In this document: piece after piece, positions 13,546 through 32,763 of the stretch
Layout: every line of letters begins with the position of its first letter
Numbering within the stretch: position 1 is the first letter of the stretch
Assembly (NCBI GenBank): GCA_024641545.1
Contig: JAHECW010000016.1
Location: 1-50,150 of the forward strand
From: Acidobacteriota bacterium
GTDB lineage: Bacteria > Acidobacteriota > Thermoanaerobaculia > Thermoanaerobaculales > Sulfomarinibacteraceae
Reading direction: 5' to 3'
Length of the DNA: 50,150 nucleotides
The notes under the pieces: model-generated
What the model was told of the DNA's origin: nothing
Seen by the model: the letters and a program-made list of their open reading frames with translations, nothing else
Databases searched by the model: none
Program-made: the position numbers and the translations under genes

Positions 13546-13573
13546 TTGACATTTGCCGATCGCGGTTTATCTT
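13546..13573 (+). promoter_or_regulatory. Orphan sigma-70-like promoter
   Basis: TTGACA (13546-13551), 16 bp, TATCTT (13568-13573), directly upstream of the decayed beta-helix gene fragment. The surrounding 60 bp are more AT-rich than the neighbouring genes. Probably the original promoter of the lost gene. Confidence 0.5.
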
Positions 13574-13607
13574 TAGTACCAATCGCACAAATCGGAGCCT
13601 TTATTGA

Positions 13608-14250: not shown

Positions 14251-14295
14251 AGCAGTTCTCGGCCCCGGGCTGAAAACCGGGGGCCGAGAACTGCT
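14251..14295. repeat. 16-bp perfect inverted repeat overlapping a stop codon
   Basis: AGCAGTTCTCGGCCCC (14251-14266) and its exact complement (14280-14295), separated by 13 bases. It begins inside the stop codon of the minus-strand gene ending at 14294. No T-run follows on either strand, so it is not a classical terminator; it may stabilise the mRNA end or be an old mobile-element trace. Confidence 0.8.
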
Positions 14296-14650: not shown

Positions 14651-14759
14651 GGGTGCCTCCTCCGGATCAGCGGCTTTCGTGCATCTGACCATTGTGCCAC
14701 GATCTTGCGCCGATACCCGGTGAGGGAAGCGTGCTAGCCTGGATTCCGACACGAGAATC

Positions 14760-16061: not shown

Positions 16062-16294
16062 AGATTGACAGCGATGAGATCGTCGAGTTGGTCCGGATTC
16101 AACTCGGCGCCGGCGATGTCCAACGGGAGGACCGATTCCAGGAAGATCTCGACGCCGAGTCGGCCGATCTGCTCAACATCGTCGCCGCCGCCGAGGATCG
16201 ATGGGGGATCATCATCGGTGAGGAGGAACTGGTCGAGCTGACCACCGTCAACGACCTTCTCCAACTGGTGCGGCGACGAGCCGGCAACCCTTGA
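16058..16294 (+). CDS. Acyl carrier protein
   Basis: 78 aa, one PP-binding domain. The phosphopantetheine Ser35 lies in LDAESADLLNIV, equivalent to the D-S-L of AcpP (here E-S-A), preceded by RFQEDL and followed by WGIIIGEEEL, the acidic helix II/III face recognised by partners. It probably carries the acyl chain from the downstream AMP ligase to the condensation protein. Start and stop overlap both neighbours (ATGA and TTGA), so the three are translationally coupled. Confidence 0.92.
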   Translation: MKIDSDEIVELVRIQLGAGDVQREDRFQEDLDAESADLLNIVAAAEDRWGIIIGEEELVELTTVNDLLQLVRRRAGNP

Positions 16295-17892
16295 CCGAGC
16301 CATCCTCCGCCACGACTCTCCTCGAGAGTCTGGAGGCTCGGGCGCGCACCGCCCCGGCCATGGAGGCCATTCGCTTCGAGGGACGGTCCATGACCTTCGG
16401 TCGGCTGTGGCGCGATATCGACGGGGTCGCGTCCACCCTCATCGAACGGGGGCTGGAACCCGGGGACCGGGTCGTCCTGGTCTTTCCCAACGGCCTGGAC
16501 TTCTTTGCCGCCTTCTTCGGCGTTCAACGCGCCGGGGGGGTGGCGGTGCCGATCTTCCCCGACTCGGGATTCGAGCGGGTCACCGACATCGCCTCGCACT
16601 GCGGCGCCGCGGCGGTGATGACCTCAGCTCTCCTGCCGGAGGACAAGCGGAACCGGATCGCTGGTCTCGGCGCCGCCACCGGCCTCACCGTCCTGTCACC
16701 GGCCGACTGTTCCGCAACCCCGACGACTGCCGACCTCCCGGTGCCGGATCCCAGGCAACTGGCCTATCTCCAGTACACCTCGGGCTCGACCGGCAACCCC
16801 AAGGGCGTCGAGCTCACCCACGGCGATCTCGTGACCAACATCCACCAGATGATCTCGGGTTTCGAGATCACCGATGACGACGTCTTCGTCAGTTGGTTGC
16901 CGGTGTCGCACGACATGGGTTTGATTCTGATGACCTTGACACCGCTGCTGCTTGCCGCCCGGATGGTGCTCATGCCGACCTCGGTCGGGAGCATCCGGCG
17001 ATGGATGACGGCCATTGCCGAGCACCGGGGGACGTTTACCGCAGCGCCCGATTTCGCGTACCGCATCGCCCTGCGCACCGCACCGAAGACCGGCGCCCTC
17101 GACCTGGGCTGTCTCCGGGTCGCCCTCAACGCGGCGGAGCCGGTTCGGGCCGGAACCGTCACCGCCTTCGAATCGCGCTTCGGACTCGACCCCACCATCG
17201 TTCCCGCGTACGGCCTCGCCGAAGCGACGGTGGGGGTGGCCGGACGACGACCCGGCGCTCCGATCAAGATCGACGGCCGTGGGCTGGTATCGGTGGGAAA
17301 ACCGTTCCCCGGGGTGGAGCTCGAGATCCACGGCGACGGCGGCCTGGTCGAGCGCGGCGGGATCGGCGAAATCGTGGTCCGCAGCCCGGCCGCGACCAGC
17401 GGCTACTTCCGCAACCCGGAAGCGACCGCGGAGCTGCTCGACGCCGAGGGCGGCATCCGCACCGGAGACATGGGTTATCTCGACGACGACGGCGAACTCA
17501 CCATCGTTGGGCGCAAGAAGAGCATCATCATCCAGGCCGGTCGGACCATCGCCCCGCAGGAGATCGAAGAGACGGTGGACGAGCTCGACTTCGTCCGGAG
17601 ATCAGCGGCCGTCGGAATCGACCGCGGCGGTCCTGAGGGGGAGCAGGCGTGGGTCTTCGTCGAGCTCAGACCAGCCGACGAGGCCAGACCCGAACGCCAC
17701 CCCGAGATGGTGGTCGAGGTGGTTCGAGCGATCCGCAACCGGCTCGGCCGGCGCCCCGGACGGGTCTATCTCCTGGGTGCGCGGACCATCCCGACGACCC
17801 ACAACGGCAAGGTCCGGCACCTGAACCTCCGTGATGAGTACCTCGCGGGTACTCTCCGGGCCGACGGCCGGATCGTCTACCCTGAGCACTGA
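16291..17892 (+). CDS. Fatty acyl-AMP ligase (ANL superfamily)
   Basis: 533 aa. Adenylate-forming motifs in order: P-loop YTSGSTGNPKG (162-172), SWLPVSHDMGLI (201-212), a motif typical of fatty acyl-AMP ligases, PAYGLAEATVGV, RTGDMGYLDDDGEL and GRKKSIIIQAGRTI, then the C-terminal THNGKVRH with the catalytic Lys. FAALs activate fatty acids with ATP and load them on an ACP rather than CoA, and the preceding ACP gene supports this. Start is TTG 16291 within the TTGA overlap. A classical FAAL-specific insertion is not obvious by eye, so an acyl-CoA ligase cannot be fully excluded. Confidence 0.87.
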   Translation: MTEPSSATTLLESLEARARTAPAMEAIRFEGRSMTFGRLWRDIDGVASTLIERGLEPGDRVVLVFPNGLDFFAAFFGVQRAGGVAVPIFPDSGFERVTDIASHCGAAAVMTSALLPEDKRNRIAGLGAATGLTVLSPADCSATPTTADLPVPDPRQLAYLQYTSGSTGNPKGVELTHGDLVTNIHQMISGFEITDDDVFVSWLPVSHDMGLILMTLTPLLLAARMVLMPTSVGSIRRWMTAIAEHRGTFTAAPDFAYRIALRTAPKTGALDLGCLRVALNAAEPVRAGTVTAFESRFGLDPTIVPAYGLAEATVGVAGRRPGAPIKIDGRGLVSVGKPFPGVELEIHGDGGLVERGGIGEIVVRSPAATSGYFRNPEATAELLDAEGGIRTGDMGYLDDDGELTIVGRKKSIIIQAGRTIAPQEIEETVDELDFVRRSAAVGIDRGGPEGEQAWVFVELRPADEARPERHPEMVVEVVRAIRNRLGRRPGRVYLLGARTIPTTHNGKVRHLNLRDEYLAGTLRADGRIVYPEH

Positions 17893-17897
17893 CGCTC

Positions 17898-19496
17898 ATG
17901 AGGATCTTCTTTCGTTTGTTCGGCCTTTTCGCCGTCCTCGTTCGGCACGGCGTCGGCCACGTCTTCCGCCGGCCTCGGGGGACCGACGGCCCGACCCGTC
18001 TTCGGATGATCCTGGAGGACGCCGGCGGCACCTGGCTCAAGTTCGGACAGGTGCTCTCCCTGCAACCCGATGTCCTGCCGCGCGAATACTGCAGCGCCCT
18101 CTTCGATCTGCTCGATCGGGTGCCTCCCTTCGAGCTCGCCGAGGTGGAGAGGGTGTTTCGCGAAGAGTTGGGCCGCCGACCGAACGAGATCTTCGACGAC
18201 TTCGACCCGGTCCCGCTGGCTTCGGCCTCCATCGGCCAGGTCCACGTCGCCGGCCTCGGTGGCCGCCGGTTCGCCGTCAAGGTGCAGCGGCCGGACGTCG
18301 ATCGGAGCTTCGAGGCCGACCTGAGACTCATGCTGTCCCTCAAGAACCTGATCACCCGGCTGCGGCTCGGTCGGTTCTACTGGCTGGGCCGGGCGATCGG
18401 CGAGTTTGTCGATTGGACCCGCGAAGAGCTCGACTACCGAACCGAGGCCCGGTTCATGGTCGCCCTCGGCCACAACGCGAGGAACAACCCGCGCGAGGCG
18501 ATCCCCGGCCTCCACCGCGAACTCTCGACATCCCGGGTCCTGGTCGCCGATCTCCTCGACGGACCCGTCCTCGTCGACTATCTACGGGCCATCGAAGCCG
18601 GTCGCCGCGAGGCTTTCGAGACCGAGCATCTCGACGCCACCTTCGACCGCGAGGAACTGGCGCGGAACATCGTCCGCAACTTCGTCCGCGATGCCTTCCA
18701 CTTCGGCCTCTTCCACGCCGACCTCCACCCCGCCAATCTCCTGATCCTCGGCAACAGCGTCGTCGGCTATGTCGATTTCGGCATCACCGGTTCACTCTCC
18801 GCCTTCGCCCGCCGCGCCATCGTGGCCCTCACCCTCGCGCTTGCCCGCGCCGATCTCGACGCCATGATGCGGCACTATTTCCACCTGACCACGGTAACCG
18901 AGGAGTCCGACGTCGCCGCCTTCCGGCGTGGTTTGGCCGACCTCCTCTCCTCGTGGTTCGACCTCGACCGCGACCACCCGGTGCAGCGCGAGAGCTTCAC
19001 CCGAATCATGTTGGATATCCTCGCCCTCGGTCGACGAACCGAACTCGTCCCGGCGCCGGACACCATCCGCTATCTCCGCTCGGTGATCACCGTCGAGGGC
19101 CTCATCACCCAGTTTGAACCCGACTTCGACGTCGGCGGCTACCTCGAGCGGGTGTGCGAGGAGGAGCTCCGGTCGCAGGAGTGGAGTGATTGGCTGTCGC
19201 CGGCAACCCTGGCCGAATTGGCGGCCGGCGGGATGAGAGCGCTCGGTGGGGCGCCGGCCATCATCGCGGACAGCCTGCGCCGCAACGACCGGGCCGAAAG
19301 CTCGGACGAAAAACCGGAAGCCGACGGCGAGGCTCGGCAGGTCCTGCAATGGGGCCTGGTCTCGCTCGCCAGCGCGGCGGTCGCGGTTCTCGGCGGCGGC
19401 GAGGCGGCGTTGGGAATCAACCTGTTCACCGCCGGAACGGCGGCCAGCCTCGCCGCTGCTACAATGTTCGTACGCACCGTTCGCCACATACGGTGA
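17898..19496 (+). CDS. UbiB/ABC1/AarF-family atypical kinase
   Basis: 532 aa with all family motifs: KxGQ as LKFGQ (47-51), Ala-rich loop ASASIGQVH (108-116), Lys128 in FAVKVQRP, the E-x-D motif in EELDYRTEA, catalytic HADLHPAN (273-280) and DFG in YVDFG (293-295). Two hydrophobic helices at the C-terminus (LVSLASAAVAVLGGG, AGTAASLAAATMF) anchor it in the membrane, as in UbiB. The family uses ATPase activity to help isoprenoid or other lipid handling, classically ubiquinone. Here no quinone genes adjoin; it sits 5 bp after the acyl-AMP ligase and before a phasin-like gene, suggesting service to the encoded lipid. Start ATG 17898 with a weak ribosome-binding site, consistent with coupling. Confidence 0.92.
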   Translation: MRIFFRLFGLFAVLVRHGVGHVFRRPRGTDGPTRLRMILEDAGGTWLKFGQVLSLQPDVLPREYCSALFDLLDRVPPFELAEVERVFREELGRRPNEIFDDFDPVPLASASIGQVHVAGLGGRRFAVKVQRPDVDRSFEADLRLMLSLKNLITRLRLGRFYWLGRAIGEFVDWTREELDYRTEARFMVALGHNARNNPREAIPGLHRELSTSRVLVADLLDGPVLVDYLRAIEAGRREAFETEHLDATFDREELARNIVRNFVRDAFHFGLFHADLHPANLLILGNSVVGYVDFGITGSLSAFARRAIVALTLALARADLDAMMRHYFHLTTVTEESDVAAFRRGLADLLSSWFDLDRDHPVQRESFTRIMLDILALGRRTELVPAPDTIRYLRSVITVEGLITQFEPDFDVGGYLERVCEEELRSQEWSDWLSPATLAELAAGGMRALGGAPAIIADSLRRNDRAESSDEKPEADGEARQVLQWGLVSLASAAVAVLGGGEAALGINLFTAGTAASLAAATMFVRTVRHIR

Positions 19497-19506
19497 GGAG
19501 GTGAGA

Positions 19507-19899
19507 ATGCGCGACCTGACCAAGAGCTTTGCTTCGTTTTCGTGGGCCATGACCCTGTTCGGCCTCGATCAGCTCCGGCACCTCGTCGCCGACGACGACT
19601 CGGGCGAGCGCCGGGTCCGGATCGGTCGCGATCTCGATGCGGTGACCACCGCCGCCAAGGGACGCCTCAGCGAGCGCAACGCGTCGATGTTCGACGCCGG
19701 TCAAACGCTGCAGAACGACATGGTCGACCTCACCTTCGACATCTTCCGCGGTGAGGAGCTCAAGCCGCGCAAGATCCTCGACCGGGCGGCCGACTTCGTC
19801 GAAGAATCGGCGGACACCCTGCGCGATCTGGCCGGCGAGAAGAAGAAGCCGGCCCGCGCCAAGAAGAAGCCGACCCGTGCGGCCTCGGCCACGGCCTGA
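19507..19899 (+). CDS. Small phasin-like protein with Lys/Ala tail
   Basis: 130 aa. The N-terminus FASFSWAMTLFGLDQLRHL is amphipathic and could lie on a lipid surface; the middle is helical; the C-terminus (EKKKPARAKKKPTRAASA) is a basic AKKP-type tail like that of PhaF or histone-H1-like proteins, able to bind nucleic acid or an acidic partner. It could coat a lipid body or membrane patch made by this cluster. ATG 19507 follows the strongest Shine-Dalgarno in the block (GAGGAGGTGA), implying high expression, as expected of a structural protein. Phasin homology is only by general resemblance. Confidence 0.6.
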   Translation: MRDLTKSFASFSWAMTLFGLDQLRHLVADDDSGERRVRIGRDLDAVTTAAKGRLSERNASMFDAGQTLQNDMVDLTFDIFRGEELKPRKILDRAADFVEESADTLRDLAGEKKKPARAKKKPTRAASATA

Positions 19900-19915
19900 C
19901 CGGGTCTGACCGGGG

Positions 19916-21487
19916 ATGTCGCGGCACGGTCGGCTCGAGCGGGTTCGAACCGAGCTCGCGACCAGGAACCTGATCCGCAGCAGACAGCGAAAACCCAACG
20001 AAGGCCTCCGCCTCGCCGGCGTCGGCGAACGAATGGCCGGAGCCCTGCCCGCCATCGGTCCTCTCTTCGCGCTCTTCGGGCGTTACCTCGCGGACCGGAC
20101 CGACTGCCTGCCGCTGCGGGACTGTCGCGACCTCGATCGAATCCGGATCGCGGTCGATCCCACGCCCATGCCCAGGGTCGGTTGGTTGCTTTCGACGCAT
20201 CTCGGCGGCCCGCTCGCCGACCATTTCAGCGCCTTCGACGGGCCGGGACGCACCACGGTACTGCACCAATGGCACGACGCCCGGCTCTGCGACGGCACCG
20301 AGGTGACGGTGAAGCTCGTTCGACCCGAGGCCCGGGCCCTCGTCGACACCGAGCTCGATCTCCTCCCGGTTCTCGAGGAACTCGACATCGCCGGCGAAAC
20401 CCCTCGATCACTGATCGAGGATTTTGTCGTCTGGCTCGACCGACAGCTCGACCTGGGTCAGGAAATTGTCGGCCTCGACCGCTTGGCGGCAGAGGTCGGC
20501 GCCTTCGATGCGTTCGAGGTCCCGACCGTACTGCACGAGCTCTGCGGCCGCGATGTCGCCGTCACCCACCGCGCCGGCGGCTCGCCGCTCGGCGAGTTGG
20601 CCGCCGCCCCCGGCAATCCCCGACCGACGCTCGCCCGCCGCATGTGCCAGGCCTGGTTGCAGCAGTCGCTCCTCGAGGGCAGCTGCCCCGAGGGCCCCCT
20701 TGCGGATCATCTCCGGCCCGTGACCGACGAGCGATTCGCGATCACCGGCGGGCTCGTCACGACCCTCGATCCACGCTGGCGCCGTCACCTCATCGACGCC
20801 ATCATCGCCACCGCGCGAGACGATCCGGATCGCGCATGCGACGCGCTTCTGGCCGAATGCACCGAGCTCGACGGCGCCGCCGATGCACTCCGGGTCCGGT
20901 CCGAACTCCGGCAGGCCGAGACCTTCCGCTCGGGCGGCTGGACCGACGACTATGCCGGCCGTCGGATCGCCGACAGTCTTTTTGTCTACTGGCGCACGCT
21001 GAGAGAGATGGGTTACCGACCCAAGGGCCACGCAGTCGCGTTTATCCGCGGTTTCTCCGAACTCGAGGCGGCGGCACGGTCCCTGGCGCCCGGCACCGAT
21101 GCCCTGGCCGGCGCCATCGACGACTTCAGGCTGGTCGCGGCCGCGGTCTCGGTTCGGGAGCACCTCGGTTCAGCGGCCCTGATCCGCGCCGTCGAAGAGC
21201 TGACGCCGGTCATCGGCGAGGTTCTCGAAGATCCGGACCGCCTGACCCGCCGTTTCCTGACCTCAACCGAGGATCGCGGGGCCGCCCCCTCGGCACGGGC
21301 GAAACGCGCCGCTTCGTGGCAGATCTTCACCGGCGCGATGGCGGTGCTCGCGGCGGCCACGATCCTCGGTGTCACCGCCGTTCGGTCCCACCCCGGACAG
21401 AGCTGGATCGAGTGGACCGTGGCGCTCGGATTCGTCGCGGCCGCAGCGGGGATCTTCAGGCTCGTCGGTGGCGGCACCGCCAGGTAA
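19916..21487 (+). CDS. UbiB-fold pseudokinase with C-terminal membrane helices
   Basis: 523 aa. It aligns by eye with the UbiB kinase encoded two genes upstream: GPLFALFGRYLADRTDCLP matches the KxGQ helix, DGTEVTVKLVRPEARALVDTELDLL the Lys strand, and the following LIEDFVVWLDRQLDLGQE and VPTVLHELCGRDV segments also fit. The catalytic parts are lost: KFGQ is LFGR (53-56), the Ala-rich loop is absent, HADLHPAN is replaced around 253-264 (LLEGSCPEGPLA), and DFG is missing near 280-285 (LVTTLD). Only Lys133 remains. Two C-terminal transmembrane helices are kept. It probably pairs with or regulates the active kinase, or binds lipid without phosphotransfer. Start ATG 19916 has a poor Shine-Dalgarno. 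Confidence 0.78.
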   Translation: MSRHGRLERVRTELATRNLIRSRQRKPNEGLRLAGVGERMAGALPAIGPLFALFGRYLADRTDCLPLRDCRDLDRIRIAVDPTPMPRVGWLLSTHLGGPLADHFSAFDGPGRTTVLHQWHDARLCDGTEVTVKLVRPEARALVDTELDLLPVLEELDIAGETPRSLIEDFVVWLDRQLDLGQEIVGLDRLAAEVGAFDAFEVPTVLHELCGRDVAVTHRAGGSPLGELAAAPGNPRPTLARRMCQAWLQQSLLEGSCPEGPLADHLRPVTDERFAITGGLVTTLDPRWRRHLIDAIIATARDDPDRACDALLAECTELDGAADALRVRSELRQAETFRSGGWTDDYAGRRIADSLFVYWRTLREMGYRPKGHAVAFIRGFSELEAAARSLAPGTDALAGAIDDFRLVAAAVSVREHLGSAALIRAVEELTPVIGEVLEDPDRLTRRFLTSTEDRGAAPSARAKRAASWQIFTGAMAVLAAATILGVTAVRSHPGQSWIEWTVALGFVAAAAGIFRLVGGGTAR

Positions 21488-21499
21488 GATGTGGTGACG

Positions 21500-22315
21500 A
21501 TGACCGACACCGACCCGAACCTCGACCCGGAAGATTTCCTCGCCCGGGCGCCGCTCTTCGCCCGCCTCGAGCGCCGGAGCCTGCGCAAGCTCGCCGCGCT
21601 GTGCGTCCCCCGTGATTTCGAACCCGGCGCGGTGGTGATCTCCGAGGGCGACAACGGCCTCGGACTCTTCGTCATCGTCTCCGGGACCGTGGAAATCACC
21701 AAACGGTCCGGGGACGACATTCTCCGGCTCGCGATGATGAAGCGCGGCGATCTGCTCGGCGAGATGGCCCTGATCGACGATCAGCCGCGGTCGGCCAGCG
21801 CCGTCGCGCTGGAGCCCACCCGGTGCCTGCTGATCACCCGCAACAGCTTTCAGACCCTGACCCGTAAGGACCCCGAGATCGCCTGGTGCCTGCTGCCCAC
21901 CCTCGCCGAGCGGATTCGCGATCTCCAGCAGCGGATGATTGCGACCGGCGCCATCGCCTCGCAATCCGTGGATGCATCCGAACCGATCCCCGATTCACCA
22001 CCGTCGTCCGGCGACTTTTCGATGACCGACGAGGACGACCGGGATCCCCTCCTCAGTCTGGCCCGCGGTCAGTACGCACTCGCGATCGCTGCGGCGGCCG
22101 GTCTGCGCGGGGTCGCGACGGCGTTCGAACGCTTTCTGACCAAGCTCGGCGATTCATCGAAGGTCGATGAGGCGGAGAACGTTCAGGCGGTTGTGCGCGA
22201 ACTGCCGACGAGCCTGTTCGCGGCCGCCGCCGCCGGATTCGAAACCACCGAACGACTCCCCGAGCAGCTCCTCGAACGCTACCGGCGATACCGCGACAGC
22301 GGGGAGGAGCGGTGA
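21500..22315 (+). CDS. Cyclic nucleotide-binding domain protein without DNA-binding domain
   Basis: 271 aa. Residues of about 15-135 form a cNMP-binding beta-barrel: FARLERRSLRKLAALC, FEPGAVVISEGDNGLGLFVIVSG and the phosphate-binding cassette GDLLGEMALIDDQPRSASAVA, with the Gly-Glu and Arg positions that contact the cyclic phosphate. No helix-turn-helix follows; instead there is an acidic linker and an Ala-rich helical C-terminus (QYALAIAAAAGLRGVATAFERFL). It is therefore a soluble sensor rather than a CRP-type regulator, and may gate the lipid machinery. ATG 21500 is chosen over GTG 21491; neither has a strong Shine-Dalgarno. Overlaps the next gene as GTGA. Confidence 0.82.
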   Translation: MTDTDPNLDPEDFLARAPLFARLERRSLRKLAALCVPRDFEPGAVVISEGDNGLGLFVIVSGTVEITKRSGDDILRLAMMKRGDLLGEMALIDDQPRSASAVALEPTRCLLITRNSFQTLTRKDPEIAWCLLPTLAERIRDLQQRMIATGAIASQSVDASEPIPDSPPSSGDFSMTDEDDRDPLLSLARGQYALAIAAAAGLRGVATAFERFLTKLGDSSKVDEAENVQAVVRELPTSLFAAAAAGFETTERLPEQLLERYRRYRDSGEER

Positions 22316-22842
22316 TCCGCCGCGCCGCCGTTTCGGTCCCCATCACCGCCACCCGGGCGGCGGCGTGGTCCCTGCTGACCGACCACGAACAGTCGGCCTC
22401 CTGGCTGCCCCGGGTGACCGCGGTCCGGGTGCTGACGACGGAGGGCGATGTCTCGGTCATCGAGCTGATCGCGAACGGCGAGCCGCTGGTGCTCGAGGTG
22501 GTGGCATCACCACCCAACGGTGCGCGATTCGAGCAGGTGGACAGGAGCGACGCGGACGGCATTTCCGGCGGCTGGAACCTCCGCGACGATGCCGGCGAAG
22601 GCCTCGTGCTCGACGCCGAAATCAGGGTTCCGACGCCGCTGTTCGCGTTCGCCGCCGGCCGGCGGCTCCGCACCGCCCTCGAAGACGCGGCCGCGATCAT
22701 CGCGTCCCAACTCAGGCGTCCGCCGACGGCCCAGCTCGCGACCTACCGCCGCGTCCTCGCGGTGATTCGTCGCGGCAATGTCATCGAGGCGCACATCGGC
22801 GACGACATCGTTGAGCTGCTCCGCATCGGGGGTGAGGAGTGA
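22312..22842 (+). CDS. SRPBCC/START-like protein A
   Basis: 176 aa. The beginning (AAVSVPITATRAAAWSLLTDHEQSASWLPRV) is the typical first strand and helix pair of the START/Bet v1 helix-grip fold, followed by antiparallel strands. Such proteins hold hydrophobic ligands in an internal cavity. The C-terminal extension (QLATYRRVLAVIRRGNVIEAHIGDDIVELLRIG) is outside the usual fold. Start GTG 22312 within a GTGA overlap, behind GGGGAGGAG. Likely to carry or present a lipid intermediate together with the following homologue. Confidence 0.75.
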   Translation: MIRRAAVSVPITATRAAAWSLLTDHEQSASWLPRVTAVRVLTTEGDVSVIELIANGEPLVLEVVASPPNGARFEQVDRSDADGISGGWNLRDDAGEGLVLDAEIRVPTPLFAFAAGRRLRTALEDAAAIIASQLRRPPTAQLATYRRVLAVIRRGNVIEAHIGDDIVELLRIGGEE

Positions 22843-23393
22843 TCCGCAAGTTCGGCCGCCTCGATGCCCCGCCGGAGCTGGTGCGATCGATCTTCATCGA
22901 CGCCGAGGCCTGGCCCGCCTGGCAGGCGGGGGTGGCACGTTCGACCGTCCTCAACCGTGCCGAAACAGCGCTCGAAGTGGAGGTCGACGGTCGTTTCATG
23001 GGCCAGCGGATGCACGGGGTCTTCGACTGCCGAATCGAAGCCGACGGCTTTGTCCAACACCAGCGCACCGGTTGGCTCAAACGGTGGGACACCCACTGGC
23101 GATTCATGACCCCGCCCGACGGCCGCGGCACGACCCTGGTCTGCGAGCTCGAGATCGACGCCGGTCTCGTCGGTTCCTTCGTCCCGAAGGGCTTCCTGCG
23201 GCGATTCGTCGACCGGGCCTTTTCGGAGACCCTCGACAACCTCAATGCGCGCGCCGTCGAGATCACCGCGCCGGCGATACCCGCTCCGGCCCCCGCCGGC
23301 GACGCCGTCACCCTGCTCGAGGTCTTCGAGACCCCGATCGGCTACGAACTCCTCGCCGGCGGCCGCCGCATCAGCCTCGAATCCAAGGACTGA
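22839..23393 (+). CDS. SRPBCC/START-like protein B
   Basis: 184 aa, again a helix-grip start: FGRLDAPPELVRSIFIDAEAWPAWQAGV, then strands including LEVEVDGRFMGQRMHGVFD and a long C-terminal helix (FLRRFVDRAFSETLDNLNARAVE) as in polyketide cyclase/CoxG-like proteins. An extra C-terminal strand region (VTLLEVFETPIGYELLAGGRRISLES) follows. Coupled to protein A by a GTGA overlap. Last gene of the plus-strand block; it runs toward the convergent tolC gene with a 33-bp gap and no obvious terminator. Confidence 0.75.
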   Translation: MIRKFGRLDAPPELVRSIFIDAEAWPAWQAGVARSTVLNRAETALEVEVDGRFMGQRMHGVFDCRIEADGFVQHQRTGWLKRWDTHWRFMTPPDGRGTTLVCELEIDAGLVGSFVPKGFLRRFVDRAFSETLDNLNARAVEITAPAIPAPAPAGDAVTLLEVFETPIGYELLAGGRRISLESKD

Positions 23394-23426: not shown

Positions 23427-24731
23427 TCAATCCCCCACCAACCGGAGGATCTCGGCCTCGGCCATTCGAGCCTCGAACTGGGCGCCGAAGAGATCGAGCT
23501 CGGCCTTGGATAGTGCGTCATGGCGATCGAGAAGCTCGCTGAAGGTGACCAGTTGCTCGCGGAAGGCGCTCTGGGTCACCCGGTAGTTCTCGGCCTGGAA
23601 CTCGAGGTTCAGACGGGCGACCTCGATCGCCGCCAGCGCCACCTCGAGTTGCCCGAACCGGGTTTCGACCTCCAGCCCGACGCGGTCGACCGCCCCACGC
23701 CGCAGCTCGGCGGCCTGCCGGCTTCGGGCTTCGGCGACGCGCTTCGACGCCCGGCCCGCTTTGATGTCCTGGAGGAACGGGATCGCCAGGTTGATCGACG
23801 CTGCGGCGTAGTCGCCCTTGAAAAACAGGTCGTTGTCGATCCACGAGTAGAGACCCACCAGCTCGAGCTTGGGACGGCCCAGCGCTCGCGCCACGCCGAC
23901 GGCGGCCTCGGCATGATCCGTCATCAGCTTCGCCTGCTCGACGGCCGGACCGGTCGCAACCGCCCGGCTCAGGGCCTCGGTTTCGGGAAGCAGATCGAGG
24001 GGCGGATCGAGGTCGGTCGTGAGCCGGAACTCCTCCCCGCTCGGCGACCCGATCAGCACTCCAAGCTTCCGGTGCGCGAGACCGAGTGCCTTCCCGGCCT
24101 CGAGCAGGGCGAGCTCGTCGGCGGCGAGCTTGCCCCGGGCACCGAGCAGTTCGACCGCGAGCGCCTCCTGCTCGGCATGCCGCGCGCGGACGGTCTCGAG
24201 ACCGTCTCGTGACCTCTCGACGCTGCGACCGGCGACCTCCAGCCGGTGCTCGGCGAGCACTGCCTCGTAGTAGGTCCGCGTCACCTGGGATTCGATCTCG
24301 AGCCGGTGCTCGCGCAGGGTCTGCCCGGCGACCTGGCGCTCGACCTTGCGGAGGCGCTTCTCGGCGCCGATGGCGCCGCCTGCATAGAGCACCTGTTTGA
24401 GTTCGAGGTTGGCCATCTTGTTGGTGTCGTATTCGCCCACCGGAACCACCCCGTCGCCCGGTGCGCCGGGGATGAAGCGGCCGTAGAGCACGTCGCCGCT
24501 GAAGGTGCCGTAACTGCCCGCGGCGGAAAGCGTCGGCCAGAAACGCGCCGAAGCGAGCTTGACCCCTGCCTCGGCCGCCTCGACCTCCGCGGTTGCCGCA
24601 CCGATGACCGGGTTGCTTTCGACCGCCAGCTGCAACGCTTCCTCGAGGGAGAGGTCCTCGGCCCCCGAACCCCCCGCCGATGCAAGCGCCACGCCGATCG
24701 ACAGGATCATCACCAATGGAACTCGACGCAT
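23427..24731 (-). CDS. TolC-family outer-membrane efflux protein
   Basis: 434 aa with a signal peptide (RRVPLVMILSIGVALASAGGSGA) and the two repeated OEP domains: LSLEEALQLAVESNPVIGAATAEVEAAEAGVKLA opening the first, and long coiled-coil helices later (VGVARALGRPKLEL, AIEVARLNLEFQAENYRVTQSAFREQLVTFSELLDRHDAL). Trimers form the outer-membrane channel and periplasmic tunnel of tripartite pumps. ATG 24731 is taken because GAAAGGAG lies nine bases upstream and the signal peptide begins there; an in-frame upstream start adds 14 charged residues. Divergent from the RND pump gene by 122 bp, sharing its regulatory region. Confidence 0.9.
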   Translation of the reverse strand: MRRVPLVMILSIGVALASAGGSGAEDLSLEEALQLAVESNPVIGAATAEVEAAEAGVKLASARFWPTLSAAGSYGTFSGDVLYGRFIPGAPGDGVVPVGEYDTNKMANLELKQVLYAGGAIGAEKRLRKVERQVAGQTLREHRLEIESQVTRTYYEAVLAEHRLEVAGRSVERSRDGLETVRARHAEQEALAVELLGARGKLAADELALLEAGKALGLAHRKLGVLIGSPSGEEFRLTTDLDPPLDLLPETEALSRAVATGPAVEQAKLMTDHAEAAVGVARALGRPKLELVGLYSWIDNDLFFKGDYAAASINLAIPFLQDIKAGRASKRVAEARSRQAAELRRGAVDRVGLEVETRFGQLEVALAAIEVARLNLEFQAENYRVTQSAFREQLVTFSELLDRHDALSKAELDLFGAQFEARMAEAEILRLVGD

Positions 24732-24762
24732 GACCACACACTCCTTTCGGAAAAGCGACCCC

Positions 24763-24793
24763 TTGTCATCCATAGTATTCTCTAGGCTGACAA
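24763..24793. promoter_or_regulatory. Inverted repeat between divergent tolC and RND genes
   Basis: TTGTCA (24763-24768) and its complement TGACAA (24788-24793), 19 bases apart, centred in the most AT-rich part of the 122-bp gap. It could be a repressor half-site pair controlling both pump genes. Each arm also resembles a -35 box, but no matching -10 at good spacing is seen. Weak evidence. Confidence 0.3.
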
Positions 24794-24853: not shown

Positions 24854-27800
24854 ATGCTCCCCCCTGAAAGCCAGGGAGGTCGGCGCGACTCGGTGCTCAT
24901 GTCCGGGGTGCTGCGCTACTACCGCGTCAGCATCCTTGTCGTCGCCGCCCTGCTGGTCTCCGGTCTGTGGTCCTTGCTCACCCTGCCCCGGAGCGAGGAC
25001 CCCGAGTTCGACGTCTTCGACGCCCGGGTCGTCGTCACCTTTCCGGGCGCCGATCCGGAAACCGTCGAGGCCCTGGTCACGCGGCCCATCGAAGAAGCGG
25101 TGCTCGAGCTCGACGAGGTCGAAACCGTGCAGTCGAGCTCGATCGCCGGGCTCGTCATGCTGGCGATCACCCTGCGTCCGGACGTCACCCCCGCGGACGC
25201 GGTTCAGACCATCCGTGAAACGGTGGATGAGGTTCGACCCGATCTTCCGGACTCGATCAACGAACCCGTCGTCGAGGGTTTCACTACCGCCGAGATCCCC
25301 ACCGTGCTCCTGGCGGTGTCCGGATTCGACGATCTGCAGGTCCTCGATGGTTGGGCGGCGAAGATTCGGGACGCACTCGAGGAGGTCGGCGGGGTCGCCC
25401 GGGTCGACACGGACGGCCTCCCCGAACGACGCATCATGGTGGACGTGGACAATGCCCGACTGGCGCAGCTCAGGATCCCGCTGGCCAGGATCGTCGAGAC
25501 CCTCCGACTCGAGAACGCCGCCATACCCGGCGGGACCCTCGATGTCGGTACGACCCGTTATCTCCTCGACAACGGCAACGAGTTCCGCGATCTCGAACAG
25601 ATCCGCGACACCGTGATCGGTCGCTTCGGTGACTCGCTGGTCACGATCCGTGACATCGCCGCGGTGCGGAACACGACGGAGGACCCCTATTACCTGGTCC
25701 GGCACGACGCCCATCCGGCCCTCCTGCTGTCGGTGGTCAAGCGCCCGGGAAGCAACACCGTCACCGTCGCGAGGCGGGTCGCGCGGGCGATCGAAGACCT
25801 CCGGCCGACCCTGCCCGACACCCTCGAGCTCGCCGTGCTCAACGACCGTGGAGAGAGCGTATCGGAGCTCCTCGGCGGTCTCGGCTGGAACGCCGTCGGC
25901 GGCGGCGTCATCGTCATCCTGATGGTGGGGTTTTTCCTCGGCCGGCGCCAGGGTCTGGTGGTGTCGGTCTCGATCCCGCTCTCGGTCCTGCTCGCGCTCA
26001 CCGTCATGCGCCTGACCGGAGTCGACCTCAACCAGGTGTCGATCTTCGGGCTGGTGCTCGCGCTCGGGATGCTCGTCGACTCGAGTCTTGTGGTCGTCGA
26101 AAACATCGGCCGCCACCTCGACGCCGGCGACGAACTCCGCCGGGCGGTCATCATCGGGGTCGACGAGGTCAAGACCCCGGTTGTCGCTTCGACCCTGACG
26201 ACTGTGGCGGCCTTTGTCCCCATGCTGCTGCTCGAGGGCAACATGGGCGCCTTCATCGCGGGCCTACCTCTGAGTGTGATCTACGCACTGGTCGGTTCGC
26301 TGCTGGTCGCCCTCACGGTCATCCCCCTGCTCTGCTACACCCTTTGGCGGAGCTTCCCGCCGCCCGCAGCGACCGCGACCGAGTCGTCGAGGGCGATCGA
26401 CTTCTACAGCGAAGTCGTCAAGTGGGCGCTCCGCCACCGGCCGACGACCCTTGCCCTGGCGGCCACCGTCTTCGGTCTCAGCCTCGCCATCATTCCCATT
26501 CTCGGTTTTCAACTCTTTCCCAAAGCCGAAAAGAGCTTCTTCTTCGTCAACATCCGCCTCCCGGGAGGAGCGAGCCTCGAAACCACCGACGGCGTCGCCG
26601 CCCAGGTCGAGGCCGTGCTCGCGGAGCAACCCGAGGTTCAGTCCTTCACCACCAACATCGGCATGGGCAACCCGCTGATCTACTACAACGTGACCCGCGA
26701 GCGGCGCAAGACCAATTTCGCCCAGATCCTGGTCAACCTGCGTCATGAGAATGCCGAAGCATACGTCGCACGGTTGGAGTCCGAGCTCGCCACCATCGCC
26801 GGCGCGTCGGTCGATGCCAAGATCTTCGAGCAGGGGTTCATGGGCGCGGCGCCGATCCAACTCAGGATTCTCGGTCCCGATCTGGCCACTCTTGCCGAGC
26901 TCGGGCGGACGGTCCGGGGCCTCATCACCGGAGTTCCCGGGTTGGCCGACATTCGCGACAGCCTCGGCGACACGACGCCCCGGCTGATCTTGGAGCTCGA
27001 CAGGCGCAAGGCGGCGCTCCTCGACGTCGACGGGTTCACCTTCTCGCAGACGGTGCTCGCATCCCTCAACGGTGTCGAGGCCACCCGCTATCGAACCGCC
27101 GGCGAGGAGGTCCCGGTCGTGGTCCGTCTCGACCGCGCCTCTCTGGGTGAGGTCTCGTCGCTCGAACGGCTCTACCTGCCGACCCGGGACGGCGCGGTCG
27201 TTCCGTTTTCCGAGATCGCACAGGTTCATCAGAACGTCGGCTGGGCCGAGATCACCCGCCTCGGCGGTCACCGGGTGGTCGTCATCTCAGCCGAAGTTGC
27301 GGGCCGACTCCCGAGCGAGGCCCTCGCCGAGATCCGAGATCTGATCGCCGACCTCGCTCTCCCCGACGGATACACCCTCGAGTACGGCGGCGAGCAGGAG
27401 GAGCGACAGAAGGCTTTCGCCGGTCTCTGGCAGGCCATGCTGCTCGCGGTGCTCGCGATCTACGCGCTGCTGGCCGTTCAGTTCAACTCCTTTGTCCAGC
27501 CGCTGGTCATCCTGCTCACCGTACCCCTCGGTCTGACCGGAGCCATGATCGGGCTCCTCATCACCGGCAGCCCGTTCGGCCTGATGGCGTTCATCGGCGT
27601 CATCTCGCTGACCGGGATCATCATCAACGACTCGATTGTCCTCGCCGATGTCACCAACTACCTGCAGCGCGTCGAGGGTAAGCGGCGGCTCGAGGCGCTG
27701 ATCGAAGCCGGCCGGCTCCGGTTCCGTCCGGTGGTCGTCACGTCGATCACCACCATCGGCGGTCTCGCCCCCCTCGCCATCTGGGGCGGCACCCTGTGGT

Positions 27801-27958
27801 CGCCGCTCGCATTCGCGGTGATCTTCGGCCTCCTCGGCTCGACGATCCTGATCCTCATCGTTCTGCCGGTGATCTACTCCGTCCTCGTCGGCGCCGCCGA
27901 GGGCCAACGGGCCTTCCACGCCTGGGAAGTCATCCACCGGAGACTGCTGGGCAAGTGA
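24854..27958 (+). CDS. RND-family efflux transporter
   Basis: 1034 aa, normal for an RND pump: TM1 at 26-45, a large periplasmic porter/docking domain, TM2-6, a second periplasmic domain, TM7-12. Signatures are LPRSEDPEFDVFDARVVV after TM1, LVTRPIEEAVLELDEVETVQS and, in TM4, ALGMLVDSSLVVVENI. The proton-relay pair Asp407-Asp408 of AcrB is Asp409-Ser410 here, so only the first Asp is kept. The C-terminal half has VQFNSFVQPLVILLTVPLGLTGA and FIGVISLTGIIINDSIVL. Substrate unknown (drugs, lipids or metals). ATG 24854 follows GGAGAAG. No conventional adaptor gene adjoins; the FHA-bearing adaptor at 30889 is the likely partner. Confidence 0.93.
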   Translation: MLPPESQGGRRDSVLMSGVLRYYRVSILVVAALLVSGLWSLLTLPRSEDPEFDVFDARVVVTFPGADPETVEALVTRPIEEAVLELDEVETVQSSSIAGLVMLAITLRPDVTPADAVQTIRETVDEVRPDLPDSINEPVVEGFTTAEIPTVLLAVSGFDDLQVLDGWAAKIRDALEEVGGVARVDTDGLPERRIMVDVDNARLAQLRIPLARIVETLRLENAAIPGGTLDVGTTRYLLDNGNEFRDLEQIRDTVIGRFGDSLVTIRDIAAVRNTTEDPYYLVRHDAHPALLLSVVKRPGSNTVTVARRVARAIEDLRPTLPDTLELAVLNDRGESVSELLGGLGWNAVGGGVIVILMVGFFLGRRQGLVVSVSIPLSVLLALTVMRLTGVDLNQVSIFGLVLALGMLVDSSLVVVENIGRHLDAGDELRRAVIIGVDEVKTPVVASTLTTVAAFVPMLLLEGNMGAFIAGLPLSVIYALVGSLLVALTVIPLLCYTLWRSFPPPAATATESSRAIDFYSEVVKWALRHRPTTLALAATVFGLSLAIIPILGFQLFPKAEKSFFFVNIRLPGGASLETTDGVAAQVEAVLAEQPEVQSFTTNIGMGNPLIYYNVTRERRKTNFAQILVNLRHENAEAYVARLESELATIAGASVDAKIFEQGFMGAAPIQLRILGPDLATLAELGRTVRGLITGVPGLADIRDSLGDTTPRLILELDRRKAALLDVDGFTFSQTVLASLNGVEATRYRTAGEEVPVVVRLDRASLGEVSSLERLYLPTRDGAVVPFSEIAQVHQNVGWAEITRLGGHRVVVISAEVAGRLPSEALAEIRDLIADLALPDGYTLEYGGEQEERQKAFAGLWQAMLLAVLAIYALLAVQFNSFVQPLVILLTVPLGLTGAMIGLLITGSPFGLMAFIGVISLTGIIINDSIVLADVTNYLQRVEGKRRLEALIEAGRLRFRPVVVTSITTIGGLAPLAIWGGTLWSPLAFAVIFGLLGSTILILIVLPVIYSVLVGAAEGQRAFHAWEVIHRRLLGK

Positions 27959-27967
27959 GAGTTCGGG

Positions 27968-29074
27968 CTACTGCTCGGCTTCGCCGAGTTCCACCCGGAG
28001 ATCGACCTGCCGGCCTTCTCGGTCGACGGTCACCGTGACGGTTTCGCCGGCGGCCCTTCTCTCCAGGGCCAACCCGAGCTCGCCGCCGGAGCGCACGGGC
28101 GTTCCGTCGACGGCCACGATGAGATCCCCGAGCACCCACTGTCCGCCCCGGTTGCGATAGGTCGGCCGCATTCCCGCCTCGTCGGCGCCGCTGCCGCGAT
28201 ACACGGCAGCCACGAGAGCGCCTTCGAGCCCGAGCCGCCGCGTCGCGTGGTCACTCACCAGGTCGACGCCCAGGACCGGTCGTCGAATCCGACCATAGGT
28301 GATGAGCTCCGGCACCACCCAGTTGACCGTGTCCACCGGGATGGCGAAACCGAGTCCGGCATAGCCGCCCGACGGGCTGACGATGGCGGTGTTGACCCCG
28401 ATGAGCCGGCCGGCGCTGTCGAGCAGCGGGCCGCCGGAGTTGCCGGGGTTGATGGCGGCATCGGTCTGGATCACATCACGGATGGGAACCCCGGCCATCG
28501 AGTCGATTTCGCGACCGAGGGCGGAGATGATCCCGGTGGTGAGGGTCTGATCGAAGCCGAAGGGGTTGCCGATGGCGAGCACGCTCTGGCCGACCAGGAG
28601 ATCTGCCGATTCACCGATTCGCAGCGGCCGGAGACTCCCCCTCGGCGCATCGATCCGGAGCACCGCGAGGTCCTTCTCCGGAGCCACTCCGACCACGGTC
28701 GCCGGCCAATTCGTCTGATCGGCGAGGGTCACCTCGGCACGATTGCCGTCGCGGATGACATGGTAGTTGGTCACGACGTGGCCCCGGTCATCCCAGATGA
28801 AACCCGATCCGGTGCCGCTCGGAATCTCCATGACGTTGAGCCGGAAGAAATCCCGGCGAAGCGAGATCGAAGTGATATAGACCACCGACGGACCGGCTTC
28901 CTGGAAGAGCGAGGTCACCGATCGTTCCTCGGCGGTGAGCTCGGCACGCGGCGTGACGGCTCTCGACTCGACGACGACGCCGGTTCGCTGGGCCGTGGCC
29001 AACGCCGTCAGGCCGATACCGCCGAGGAGACCGAGGACGAACACCGGAACCCAGCGAAAACGATATCCAGACAT
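27968..29074 (-). CDS. HtrA/DegP-family trypsin-like protease with PDZ domain
   Basis: 368 aa. An uncleaved signal-anchor (VPVFVLGLLGGIGLTALATA) is followed by a trypsin fold with triad His105 (TNYHVI), Asp135 (EKDLAVL) and Ser213 (GNSGGPL), then one PDZ domain from about residue 265 (PVLGVDLVS... GDLIVAVDGTPVRSGGEL). This is the DegS/single-PDZ layout: a periplasmic protease anchored in the inner membrane, acting in envelope stress or regulated proteolysis. ATG 29074 follows AAGGAG. Convergent with the RND gene (9 bp apart) and divergent from the phosphatase gene (59 bp), so it shares a promoter region with the latter. Confidence 0.92.
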   Translation of the reverse strand: MSGYRFRWVPVFVLGLLGGIGLTALATAQRTGVVVESRAVTPRAELTAEERSVTSLFQEAGPSVVYITSISLRRDFFRLNVMEIPSGTGSGFIWDDRGHVVTNYHVIRDGNRAEVTLADQTNWPATVVGVAPEKDLAVLRIDAPRGSLRPLRIGESADLLVGQSVLAIGNPFGFDQTLTTGIISALGREIDSMAGVPIRDVIQTDAAINPGNSGGPLLDSAGRLIGVNTAIVSPSGGYAGLGFAIPVDTVNWVVPELITYGRIRRPVLGVDLVSDHATRRLGLEGALVAAVYRGSGADEAGMRPTYRNRGGQWVLGDLIVAVDGTPVRSGGELGLALERRAAGETVTVTVDREGRQVDLRVELGEAEQ

Positions 29075-29096
29075 ACCCACTCCTTCTGACCCGGCG

Positions 29097-29102
29097 ATTA
29101 TA
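29097..29102 (-). promoter_or_regulatory. -10 box of the HtrA gene
   Basis: Perfect TATAAT on the minus strand in the 59-bp gap between the divergent htrA-like and phosphatase genes, 23 bases before the ATG. The -35 position (CGAAGG) is poor, suggesting an activator or another sigma factor. Confidence 0.45.
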
Positions 29103-29133
29103 GCCAAGAACGCCTCGAACCTTCGGTGTCATA

Positions 29134-30804
29134 ATGGCAACAGTCATGTTCCTGCTCTCAGTCACCCCGGCCGAAGGCGAGCCCTTCGATCACCAGATCG
29201 ACGGCGAGACGCTCTTTGTCGGAAGGTCGACCCTCTGTGACGTCACCATCGCGGATCGCTTTCTGTCGCGTCGTCACGCCCGCATCTTCAACTCCGGCGA
29301 GGAATGGCGGATCGAGGATCTCGGTTCCCGCAACGGAACCTTCGTCAACGGCCGCCGGGTTGAACAACCGACGACGATCCAGGCGGGAGATGTGATCGCG
29401 CTCTCCGCCAGCCTGATCAAGGTCCGGGCCAGGCCCGAGGCCGGCACGCCCTCCGATGTGACCACCGATGTGTCATCTTCGGACCGTCTCTTCCGATCCG
29501 CGGCCGAGGTCCTTCGCCGAACCGCCACCCCGCCACCCGATACCGAAGAGACCGATGGGTCCGCGCTGCGAAGCTATGCGACCCGCCTGGCGCTGCTCAA
29601 CAGGGTCCACCAGGCCATGGCGAGATCCATCGGTCTCGAAGACCTGCTCGAGTTGATCCTCGACCACATCTTCGCCCACCTCCAGCCCGAGCGCGCCGAA
29701 GTCTTCATGCGCTGCGAAGACGGCAGCTACACCTGCGTCGCCAACCGATCGGGGCCGCGCTCCTCGCTCGGTTCGCTGTACTCGGAGAACCTGTTCACCG
29801 AGGTCGGAGACAAGGCCATGGCGGCCCTGGTCACCGACGCCCGATCGGATCACCGCTTCGCCCAGGCCGAGAGTCTGGTCGCAGCCGGTGTGCGTTCGCT
29901 GCTGGCGGCCCCGCTCTACGCCCCGGACCGCGCCCTCGGCCTCATCGTGCTCGGCTCGAATGCGGCGGTCCGACAGTACAGTGAAGAGGATCTCGAACTG
30001 CTCGTGACCCTCTCCTCGGTGGCCGCGCTCCGAATCCACAACCTGGCCCTCACCCAGGAGGCGGTGGAGCGACAACGGCTCGAACGCGAACTCAACATCG
30101 CTCGAAGGCTCCAGGTGGCCCTGATCCCCGAAAGACTCCCGGAGGTCGCAGGCTATCGGCTGTACGGCGCCGCAAAACCCTCGCGCGGTGTCTCTGGGGA
30201 CTACTATCAGCTCGTCGAACGGGCCGGGGGCGACGAGTTCGTCCTCGCCCTCGCCGATGTCTCGGGCAAGGGCATCTCGGCGGCCATGGTCACGGGATAT
30301 CTCGAGGCGATGGTCTCGGTGCCCATCGAAGACGGCCTGCCTCCGCACCAGATCTTCAACCGGGTGTCCCCGAAACTTCTCGACCGAACCCCGTCGAATC
30401 GATTCGCGACCATGTTTCTCGGCGTCCTCGAACCGACCAACGGCCGTTTTCGATTTGCCAACGCCGGCCACGCGCCGGCCTGCCTGGTGCGCGCGTCGGG
30501 CGCCGTCGAGTGGCTCAGCTCCACCGGTCCGCCCCTGGGGCTCGTCGCACCCGCCGAGTATCAACTGCGCGAGGTCGTGCTCGAAACCGCCGATACGCTG
30601 GTGGTCTATTCCGACGGCTACACCGAGGCCGAGAACCCCACCGCGGAGGAGTTCGGTCAGGATCGGCTGGCCGAGGTCTGCGTCCGGAACAAGCTGCAAG
30701 AACCCGCCGAGCTCGCGGAAGCGGTGGACAGGGCTCTCGAGGACTACACTGCCGGCCAACCCTTCGCCGACGACCGCACCATCGTCGTCGTCCGTCGGGT
30801 TTAG
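29134..30804 (+). CDS. FHA-GAF-PP2C (SpoIIE/RsbU-type) Ser/Thr phosphatase
   Basis: 556 aa, cytoplasmic, three domains. The FHA domain (about 5-98) has Gly30-Arg31, SRRH 45-48 and SRNGTFVNG (65-73), the phosphothreonine-binding set. The GAF domain (about 150-305) could sense a small ligand. A coiled linker (VERQRLERELNIARRLQVAL) leads to the SpoIIE-type PP2C domain (about 335-556) with metal-binding Asp356 (SGDYY), Asp375 (ADVSGKG), Asp494 (YSDG) and DDRT (546-549), so it looks active. It would dephosphorylate Ser/Thr targets such as STAS proteins or FHA ligands. Start ATG 29134 lacks a clear Shine-Dalgarno; Met5 is an alternative. The FHA-adaptor gene follows after 84 bp on the same strand. 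Confidence 0.92.
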   Translation: MATVMFLLSVTPAEGEPFDHQIDGETLFVGRSTLCDVTIADRFLSRRHARIFNSGEEWRIEDLGSRNGTFVNGRRVEQPTTIQAGDVIALSASLIKVRARPEAGTPSDVTTDVSSSDRLFRSAAEVLRRTATPPPDTEETDGSALRSYATRLALLNRVHQAMARSIGLEDLLELILDHIFAHLQPERAEVFMRCEDGSYTCVANRSGPRSSLGSLYSENLFTEVGDKAMAALVTDARSDHRFAQAESLVAAGVRSLLAAPLYAPDRALGLIVLGSNAAVRQYSEEDLELLVTLSSVAALRIHNLALTQEAVERQRLERELNIARRLQVALIPERLPEVAGYRLYGAAKPSRGVSGDYYQLVERAGGDEFVLALADVSGKGISAAMVTGYLEAMVSVPIEDGLPPHQIFNRVSPKLLDRTPSNRFATMFLGVLEPTNGRFRFANAGHAPACLVRASGAVEWLSSTGPPLGLVAPAEYQLREVVLETADTLVVYSDGYTEAENPTAEEFGQDRLAEVCVRNKLQEPAELAEAVDRALEDYTAGQPFADDRTIVVVRRV

Positions 30805-30888: not shown

Positions 30889-32763
30889 ATGATCATCATC
30901 ACGACATCTCGTCCCGGGGAACCTGAAACCAGCCATCGGTTCGAAGGTGGGAGGGTGCGAATCGGCCGCGAGGACGACAACGATCTCGTTCTCGATTCCG
31001 CCGCCTGTTCCCGCCACCACGCAGAGATCGTCGACCAGGGCGGACTCTTCAAGATCACCGACCTGGGCAGCACCAACGGCATCGTCATCGGCGACCGGCG
31101 GGTGCCCGACTATCTTCTGTCGGAAGGACTCAGGCTCACCCTGGGTGATTTCGAACTCGCGTTCTCGTTCCCGGCGGGTCAGAGCGCAAAGACCGTCGCG
31201 ATCCCGATCGGCGGCGGCGCCGTCGCCGCCGCACCGTCGACCAAGGTGCTCTACCTCCACATTCAGGCTCGCGACGGCGTTCGTGCAGTCAAGATCGTCG
31301 CCGGCGCGGATTACATCATCGGTCGCTCGCAAGGCTCGGATGTGGTTCTGGACGACTCCGGCTGCTCCGGTCGCCACGCGGTGATCTTCTGGCAGGACGG
31401 CCGGGTGATGATTCGCGACCTCGAGAGCGCCAACGGCACCCAGGTCAACTCCGAAGCCGTCCTCGAGGCCGAGATCCGGACCGGCGATCATCTCACCTTG
31501 GGTCGCACCGAAGTCCTGGTCAGCGATCAACCTCCCGACACCGCCGATGATGACATTCTGCTCAGACGGACCCAGCTCGGTCTGCAGTTGCCGGCCGCTC
31601 CGGCCCGGGCGGCGCACCGGGAGGAAGCGCACGGACACGACGCCGCGCCGATTCCCCGCTGGGTCATGGCGCTGGCCGCCGTTGCCGTCGTGGTGCTGGT
31701 TGCGGTTTTCGCCGGCTCCCGTTTGCTGAATCGGGTCGCCCCCCAGAGTGGCCGGGATGGCGGGCCGACGGCCGCCGCGGAGGAGATGATCGTCGAGGTC
31801 CGCCCGGTCATCCGCAAGGAACTGAGCTTCACGGTTTCGGCGGCCGGCACGGTCAAACCGCAACGCCAGGTCACGGTGAGCGCCGAAATCCCCGGCCGGG
31901 TGGTTTCTGCCCCCGCCGAGCGCGGATCGACGGTGCGGGCCGGCGACGAACTGATCCGGCTCGACGACCGTGAAATCCGGCTCCAGATCACCGAAGCGTC
32001 GTCGTCGATCACCACCGCACAGGTGGAGCTCGCCCGCGAGGACTACGAACGCAAGCAACGGCTCTTTGCGGATGGCGCGGTGACCCGGTCGGCCCTCGAC
32101 CAGAGCAAGAACCAGTACCTCGGACTCGACTCGGCCTATCGCTCGACTCAGGCTCGAATCGCCCAGCTCAAGGAAAGGGCCGCCAAGACCCGCATCCACG
32201 CGCCGTTGACCGGCACCGTGGCCCGACTCGAGGTGGAACCGGGCGAGTTCGTTGCGCCGGGCATGCCGATCGCGGTGATCGAGGACATGGAGGACGTCCT
32301 CGTGGTGGTCGAGGTCGCCGACCGTGACGTGGTCCGTCTTCGGTCGTTGCAGGTGGTCGAGGCGACCTCGGACGCATTTCCGGGGAAGATCTTCTCCGGA
32401 GTCGTGGAGCGGGTCGGCGGCGCCGCGAACCCGGTGACCCGGGCATTCGAGGTCGAGGCCCGAATCGCCAATCCCGACGGCGAGTTGCGGAGCGGCATGA
32501 TCATCTCGCTGCGAATCCTGCTCGAAAAGCGAAACGCTCTCGTGGTGCCGGCGGCGGCGTTGCTCGGTGAGGGCGCGGAAACCGCACGAGTCGTCGTGGT
32601 GTCGAACGGCGTCGCACGAAGCGCGGAGGTCACCGTCGGCCGACGCTCCGACCGGGATGTGGAGCTGCTCTCGGGGCTCGCCGAGGGAGACGAGGTTGTC
32701 GTCTCCGGACACGATCGACTGCACGACGGGCAGCCGGTCAAGACCTATCGAGAAAACCCCTGA
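30889..32763 (+). CDS. Tandem-FHA / transmembrane / RND periplasmic adaptor fusion
   Basis: 624 aa. FHA1 (about 5-95): RIGRE (24-28), SRHH 41-44, STNG 61-64. FHA2 (about 120-212): YIIGRS (142-147), SGRH 160-163, ANGTQVN (181-187). A linker leads to one transmembrane helix (258-280, RWVMALAAVAVVVLVAVFAGSRLL begins it). Then comes a complete membrane-fusion protein: lipoyl halves PQRQVTVSAEIPGRVVSAPAERGSTVRAGD first part (324-353) and APLTGTVARLEVEPGEFVAPG second part (438-458), a helical hairpin between, then beta-barrel and membrane-proximal domains to the end. So FHA domains face the cytoplasm and the adaptor faces the periplasm, where it would bridge the RND pump and TolC. The architecture is continuous in one frame with no sign of frameshift. 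Start ATG 30889, GGGAGAA about 13 bases upstream. Confidence 0.9.
   Translation: MIIITTSRPGEPETSHRFEGGRVRIGREDDNDLVLDSAACSRHHAEIVDQGGLFKITDLGSTNGIVIGDRRVPDYLLSEGLRLTLGDFELAFSFPAGQSAKTVAIPIGGGAVAAAPSTKVLYLHIQARDGVRAVKIVAGADYIIGRSQGSDVVLDDSGCSGRHAVIFWQDGRVMIRDLESANGTQVNSEAVLEAEIRTGDHLTLGRTEVLVSDQPPDTADDDILLRRTQLGLQLPAAPARAAHREEAHGHDAAPIPRWVMALAAVAVVVLVAVFAGSRLLNRVAPQSGRDGGPTAAAEEMIVEVRPVIRKELSFTVSAAGTVKPQRQVTVSAEIPGRVVSAPAERGSTVRAGDELIRLDDREIRLQITEASSSITTAQVELAREDYERKQRLFADGAVTRSALDQSKNQYLGLDSAYRSTQARIAQLKERAAKTRIHAPLTGTVARLEVEPGEFVAPGMPIAVIEDMEDVLVVVEVADRDVVRLRSLQVVEATSDAFPGKIFSGVVERVGGAANPVTRAFEVEARIANPDGELRSGMIISLRILLEKRNALVVPAAALLGEGAETARVVVVSNGVARSAEVTVGRRSDRDVELLSGLAEGDEVVVSGHDRLHDGQPVKTYRENP

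Follow-up and report, generated by a model that had tools for sequence, protein, structure and literature searches.

Two FHA domains fused to the periplasmic adaptor of an RND efflux pump in Thermoanaerobaculia

Background

RND pumps are major efflux machines, and their adaptors assemble as hexamers. A locus of an Acidobacteriota bacterium (class Thermoanaerobaculia) raises the question of what such an adaptor might do with two FHA domains of its own, FHA being a type of domain that recognises phosphorylated proteins. The window, which is the whole stretch of DNA that was analysed, measures 50,150 nucleotides (contig JAHECW010000016.1 of assembly GCA_024641545.1). An earlier note on it had proposed that an adaptor fused to two FHA domains is encoded here, and that this lets a cytoplasmic phosphorylation signal recruit, cluster or gate the pump.

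FHA-bearing exporters are not new. Rv1747 of Mycobacterium tuberculosis also combines an exporter with a tandem FHA module and a disordered linker; its kinase is PknF. Its N-terminal FHA-linker-FHA module is described as forming condensates, which PknF promotes and PstP reverses, and the protein is described as making nanoclusters in the membrane (both PMC9312465). FHA I binds a phosphothreonine partner (PMC5549992), and the kinase gene sits in the exporter's operon (PMC3908365). The fusion described below is an FHA-bearing exporter component of the kind already known for Rv1747; what is new is that it occurs in an RND pump.

The post-translational regulators that one review lists for RND pumps are small proteins, AcrZ and WatS1 among them, and it describes phosphorylation as a scarce means of control in bacterial transporters (PMC10710835). 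If the reading given here is true, a built-in phosphothreonine reader would be a route from kinase signalling to efflux without new gene expression. It would also mean that the way in which Rv1747 joins FHA domains to an exporter has a counterpart outside the ABC class and in a second phylum.

The fusion gene

The gene is a single uninterrupted open reading frame with an ATG start, and its extent and its 624 codons are as the earlier note had given them (Table 1). From N- to C-terminus it encodes two FHA domains, one transmembrane helix and a complete RND-type periplasmic adaptor. In Pfam the protein matches FHA in two stretches (124 bits, E 3e-36), HlyD_D23 (E 1e-27) and HlyD_3 (E 3e-21). The NCBIfam model RND_mfp (TIGR01730) scores 235 bits, above its curated cut-off of 94.9 bits. 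Neither collection finds an ABC transporter domain on the protein, which has adaptor domains instead. A scan for promoters and terminators gave no signal above chance.

Table 1 Coordinates of the fusion gene, its parts and its neighbours in the window.
Feature	Position	Strand	Remarks
TolC-like outer-membrane factor	23427..24773	-	Pfam; divergent from permease
RND (HAE-1 type) permease, cognate	24854..27958	+	1034 aa; 54% identical to permease beside G091 fusion
HtrA/DegP-type PDZ protease	27968..29107	-	resident gene
FHA-GAF-SpoIIE (PP2C-type) phosphatase	29134..30804	+	84 bp upstream of fusion, same strand; resident gene
FHA-FHA-TM-RND adaptor fusion gene	30889..32763	+	624 aa; profiles, G091 orthologue, models, structural alignment
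FHA1 (aa 15-96)	30931..31176	+	closest solved: EmbR FHA, Rv1747 FHA-1
Inter-FHA linker (aa 97-119)	31177..31245	+	mostly low model confidence; KT102 common to G091
FHA2 (aa 120-213)	31246..31527	+	closest solved: FhaA (TB39.8), GarA
Juxtamembrane linker (aa 214-257)	31528..31659	+	mostly disordered; DQxxDxxDDxxLLxxTxLG (T228) common to G091
Single transmembrane helix (aa 258-280)	31660..31728	+	hydrophobic segment, both models
RND periplasmic adaptor domains (aa 300-621)	31786..32751	+	Pfam, NCBIfam, models; helical hairpin aa 361-432

The AlphaFold2 model has a pLDDT of about 95 for FHA1, 93 for FHA2 and 97 for the adaptor. A second model was built on another alignment, in which the FHA half is covered by two sequences only; it shows the same secondary structure and fold. 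Profiles, both models and structural alignment (VIA-align) agree, and we consider it nearly certain that the FHA-FHA-TM-adaptor architecture is present in one protein. The fusion that the earlier note had claimed thus stands, and structure prediction, which it had suggested as a check, does find the N-terminal half to be FHA-like.

FHA domains, linkers and topology

Every canonical residue of the phosphothreonine site is present in both FHA domains: GR27, S41-RH-H44 and N63-G64 in FHA1, and GR146, S160-GR-H163 and N182-G183 in FHA2. These are the GR, S-x-x-H and NG motifs that had been noticed before. The relatives in Table 1 are the nearest in the PDB by sequence; for FHA1 against Rv1747 FHA-1 (6cah) the E value is 4e-12. 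By structure, residues 118-214 align to GarA with Z 17.6 and an rmsd of 1.4 A, and to GarA and FhaA together at Z about 17 and 1.4-1.9 A, while residues 1-97 align to the FHA domains of MDC1 (Z 15.6) and Slr1951 (Z about 15). Judging from the residues of the site, the FHA pair most likely binds phosphothreonine.

Two stretches of the AlphaFold2 model, 99-117 and 219-253, have pLDDT below 50 and are probably disordered. A helix follows at 257-280. The protein has no lipobox and only one hydrophobic segment, at about 258-280, which is where the earlier note had placed the transmembrane helix. Because an RND adaptor reaches permease and TolC only from the periplasm, the FHA pair ahead of the helix should lie on the cytoplasmic side, as that note also had it. 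The charges flanking the helix agree with this in the orthologue described below, whereas those of the window protein give an ambiguous picture.

The adaptor and its pump

The adaptor fold is complete, with hairpin, lipoyl, barrel and membrane-proximal domains, the first three of which the earlier note had also described. Residues 297-624 align to AcrA at Z 23. AcrA, MexA, MexJ and TriA, as well as MacA of an ABC pump, share the full fold with the fusion (Z up to 23), but no solved chain listed joins an adaptor to FHA domains. The hairpin keeps the tip motif R388-x3-L392-x6-T399, and we take this R-L-S/T motif to be consistent with TolC docking.

The best relative of the permease among 18 genomes directly adjoins the only other fusion seen, that of genome G091, and scores 1128 bits (Table 1). 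The next best match has 485 bits and 34% identity, which is under half of that score. Permease and FHA-adaptor therefore form a co-inherited pair, given that the only strong relative of the permease lies beside the G091 fusion and that the two fusions are sisters on the adaptor tree (support 0.995). The nearest permeases in the PDB are MexK and the 6vej transporter. TM4 of the permease reads VDSS (VDCG in G091) and TM10 reads IIINDSIVL, with one Asp retained in each; the positions equivalent to AcrB D408 and K940 are thus replaced.

We rejected the idea that the TolC-like protein belongs to the conserved pair, because the search of G091 yielded no close relative; G001 and G002 yielded none either. 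Together with the nearby permease and a TolC-type channel, the fusion is predicted from its sequence to be the adaptor of a tripartite RND pump.

Conservation and rarity

G091 belongs to another family of the class. Its contig CALZJC010000088.1 encodes a 634-residue protein with the same set of Pfam domains; it is 46% identical to the window fusion, and the alignment is collinear over residues 1 to 622. Identity by region is 52% for FHA1, 36% for FHA2, 41% for the transmembrane helix, 30% for the juxtamembrane linker and 52% for the adaptor. Between the two genomes, FHA1 has diverged no further than the adaptor half, which indicates that FHA1 is under constraint. The canonical Arg, Ser, His and Asn-Gly are also conserved in the G091 FHA domains. 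Within the juxtamembrane linker, the motif around T228 is identical at 10 of its 19 positions, against 4 of 26 in the remainder.

The architecture is very rare. Among the best matches listed, two of the 149 genomes of the class have it; no further full-length fusion was seen among those listed in 60 relatives, and none in the sampled 396 Acidobacteriota and 398 Pseudomonadota, or in plasmids or viral contigs. A wider survey used two short peptide patterns only, on one genome per species for about 85,000 species. With only best matches listed, fusions with very divergent FHA domains may escape. The spread of the fusion, which the earlier note had wanted checked, is in any case not that of a widespread pump family, an idea we dropped on these counts.

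Neighbouring genes

We also considered the phosphatase directly upstream as a conserved partner and rejected it. It is present in genomes of the same genus that lack the fusion, and in G091 it does not adjoin the fusion. In three genomes of the genus, the DegP-type protease and this phosphatase form a conserved divergent pair near ftsZ. Two same-genus genomes keep the order MurG-MurC-FtsQ-FtsA-FtsZ-hydrolase-phosphatase-DegP at about 66-94% identity, and fusion, permease and TolC are all absent at this position. Distribution and gene order are most simply explained if this lineage gained the pump genes on both sides of the resident pair. The alternative is that they were lost in the other genomes of the genus. 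Base composition gives no sign of recent transfer, as GC3 of the fusion is like that of its neighbours.

Comparison with known systems

Rv1747 differs from the fusion in two ways. It is ABC-type and has its two FHA domains in the transporter protein, whereas here the pump is RND and the pair is on the adaptor. Its kinase gene is in the operon, while no Hanks kinase is found among the scanned genes of the window or of the G091 locus.

In the parts drawn on here, a review of tripartite efflux names no FHA-bearing adaptor (PMC8277102). It does describe adaptors of the EmrA, HlyD and MacA kind (ABC, MFS and T1SS systems) that, like the fusion, have an N-terminal transmembrane helix and a cytoplasmic part; in the same parts these are not reported as FHA, and the fusion is an RND-type adaptor. 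Going by titles and abstracts (FHA with adaptor, HlyD, efflux or kinase), the open-licence literature describes no FHA-adaptor fusion, so the statement that no pump of this architecture is described holds to that extent.

The order cytoplasmic FHA, transmembrane helix, periplasmic part is also that of YscD/CdsD-type proteins of type III secretion systems and of myxobacterial GltG. Profiles of both match the FHA part of the fusion (Pfam, NCBIfam). Their periplasmic half is unrelated, however, and the FHA domains of the fusion retain the phosphothreonine site.

What the FHA pair may do

The genome has about 50 Hanks-type kinases, counted from about 55 Pkinase matches of which some are pieces of the same gene; FHA matches number 19. 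Near the fusion, the only kinase genes in the window are of the atypical ABC1 type, and no Pkinase match lies on contig C4 among the genome matches listed.

In the mechanism we propose, Hanks-type kinases would phosphorylate a threonine either of a partner protein or of the fusion's own linkers (T102 or T228). The cytoplasmic FHA pair would bind it, and binding would bring the pump to a site of signalling or gather several pumps into a cluster. A hexameric adaptor would place 12 FHA domains beneath each pump. That the pump is controlled by phosphothreonine in some way seems rather probable to us, and each particular mode less so; recruitment or clustering under Hanks-type kinases, by analogy with Rv1747, still strikes us as somewhat probable. 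That the adaptor reads cytoplasmic phosphothreonine and relays or localises this signal to the pump on the other side of the membrane, making this an RND pump directly controlled by Ser/Thr kinases, is a tentative reading, to which we give not quite even weight. The architecture suggests, without proving, such direct control of this pump.

Recruiting and clustering, as originally suggested, are made plausible by the Rv1747 precedent. Gating is less likely: about 35 residues of the juxtamembrane linker are predicted to be disordered, and such flexibility would favour recruitment or clustering over a rigid mechanical link.

The FHA pair could instead be a structural scaffold, a cytoplasmic ring or platform that aids adaptor oligomerisation without reading phosphorylation. 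YscD-family ring proteins of type III secretion, with a cytoplasmic FHA-like domain, one transmembrane helix and periplasmic ring domains, are oligomers of the same order, and Pfam Yop-YscD_cpl matches the fusion too, at 93 bits. The FHA model scores higher, and a pure scaffold would not need the phosphothreonine-site residues, all of which are present in both domains here and in those of G091; we find a scaffold unlikely. We judge an autoinhibitory switch like that of GarA or OdhI to be similarly improbable. A kinase would phosphorylate T102 or T228, and the protein's own FHA domain would then bind this residue and so turn off pump assembly or the binding of a partner. In each of the two disordered linkers a threonine is common to G091, one of them in DDxxLLxxTxLG, which makes T228 a candidate phospho-acceptor; but only two sequences are known, so conservation of a linker threonine is weak evidence.

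That the FHA half is a neutral passenger on an ordinary RND pump would fit the rarity of the architecture. It fits poorly with 46% identity in a protein that is collinear over its whole length and whose FHA1 has diverged no more than its adaptor, and we hold it to be very unlikely. The two genomes are drafts in many pieces (310 and about 550 contigs, G091 being a MAG), which could raise the suspicion that separate genes were joined by a sequencing or assembly error. An independent, divergent and collinear orthologue on a contig of another genome leaves this practically no chance, and we rejected it.

Other observations

Many FHA proteins of the class, including FHA-GAF-SpoIIE phosphatases, have a conserved T-x-[FLY]-R-x-[AL]-x-E-[LF] motif 10-30 residues past the FHA domain, which we take to resemble the GarA phospho-motif. 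In the genus of the window its Thr is replaced.

Beside the pump, positions 12264-23390 hold an ACR3 arsenite exporter, followed by a PapA5/condensation-like acyltransferase and an acyl-AMP/CoA ligase. Two ABC1 kinases, a cNMP-binding protein and two polyketide-cyclase-like proteins are also found there, and the group is possibly a lipid-type biosynthetic cluster.
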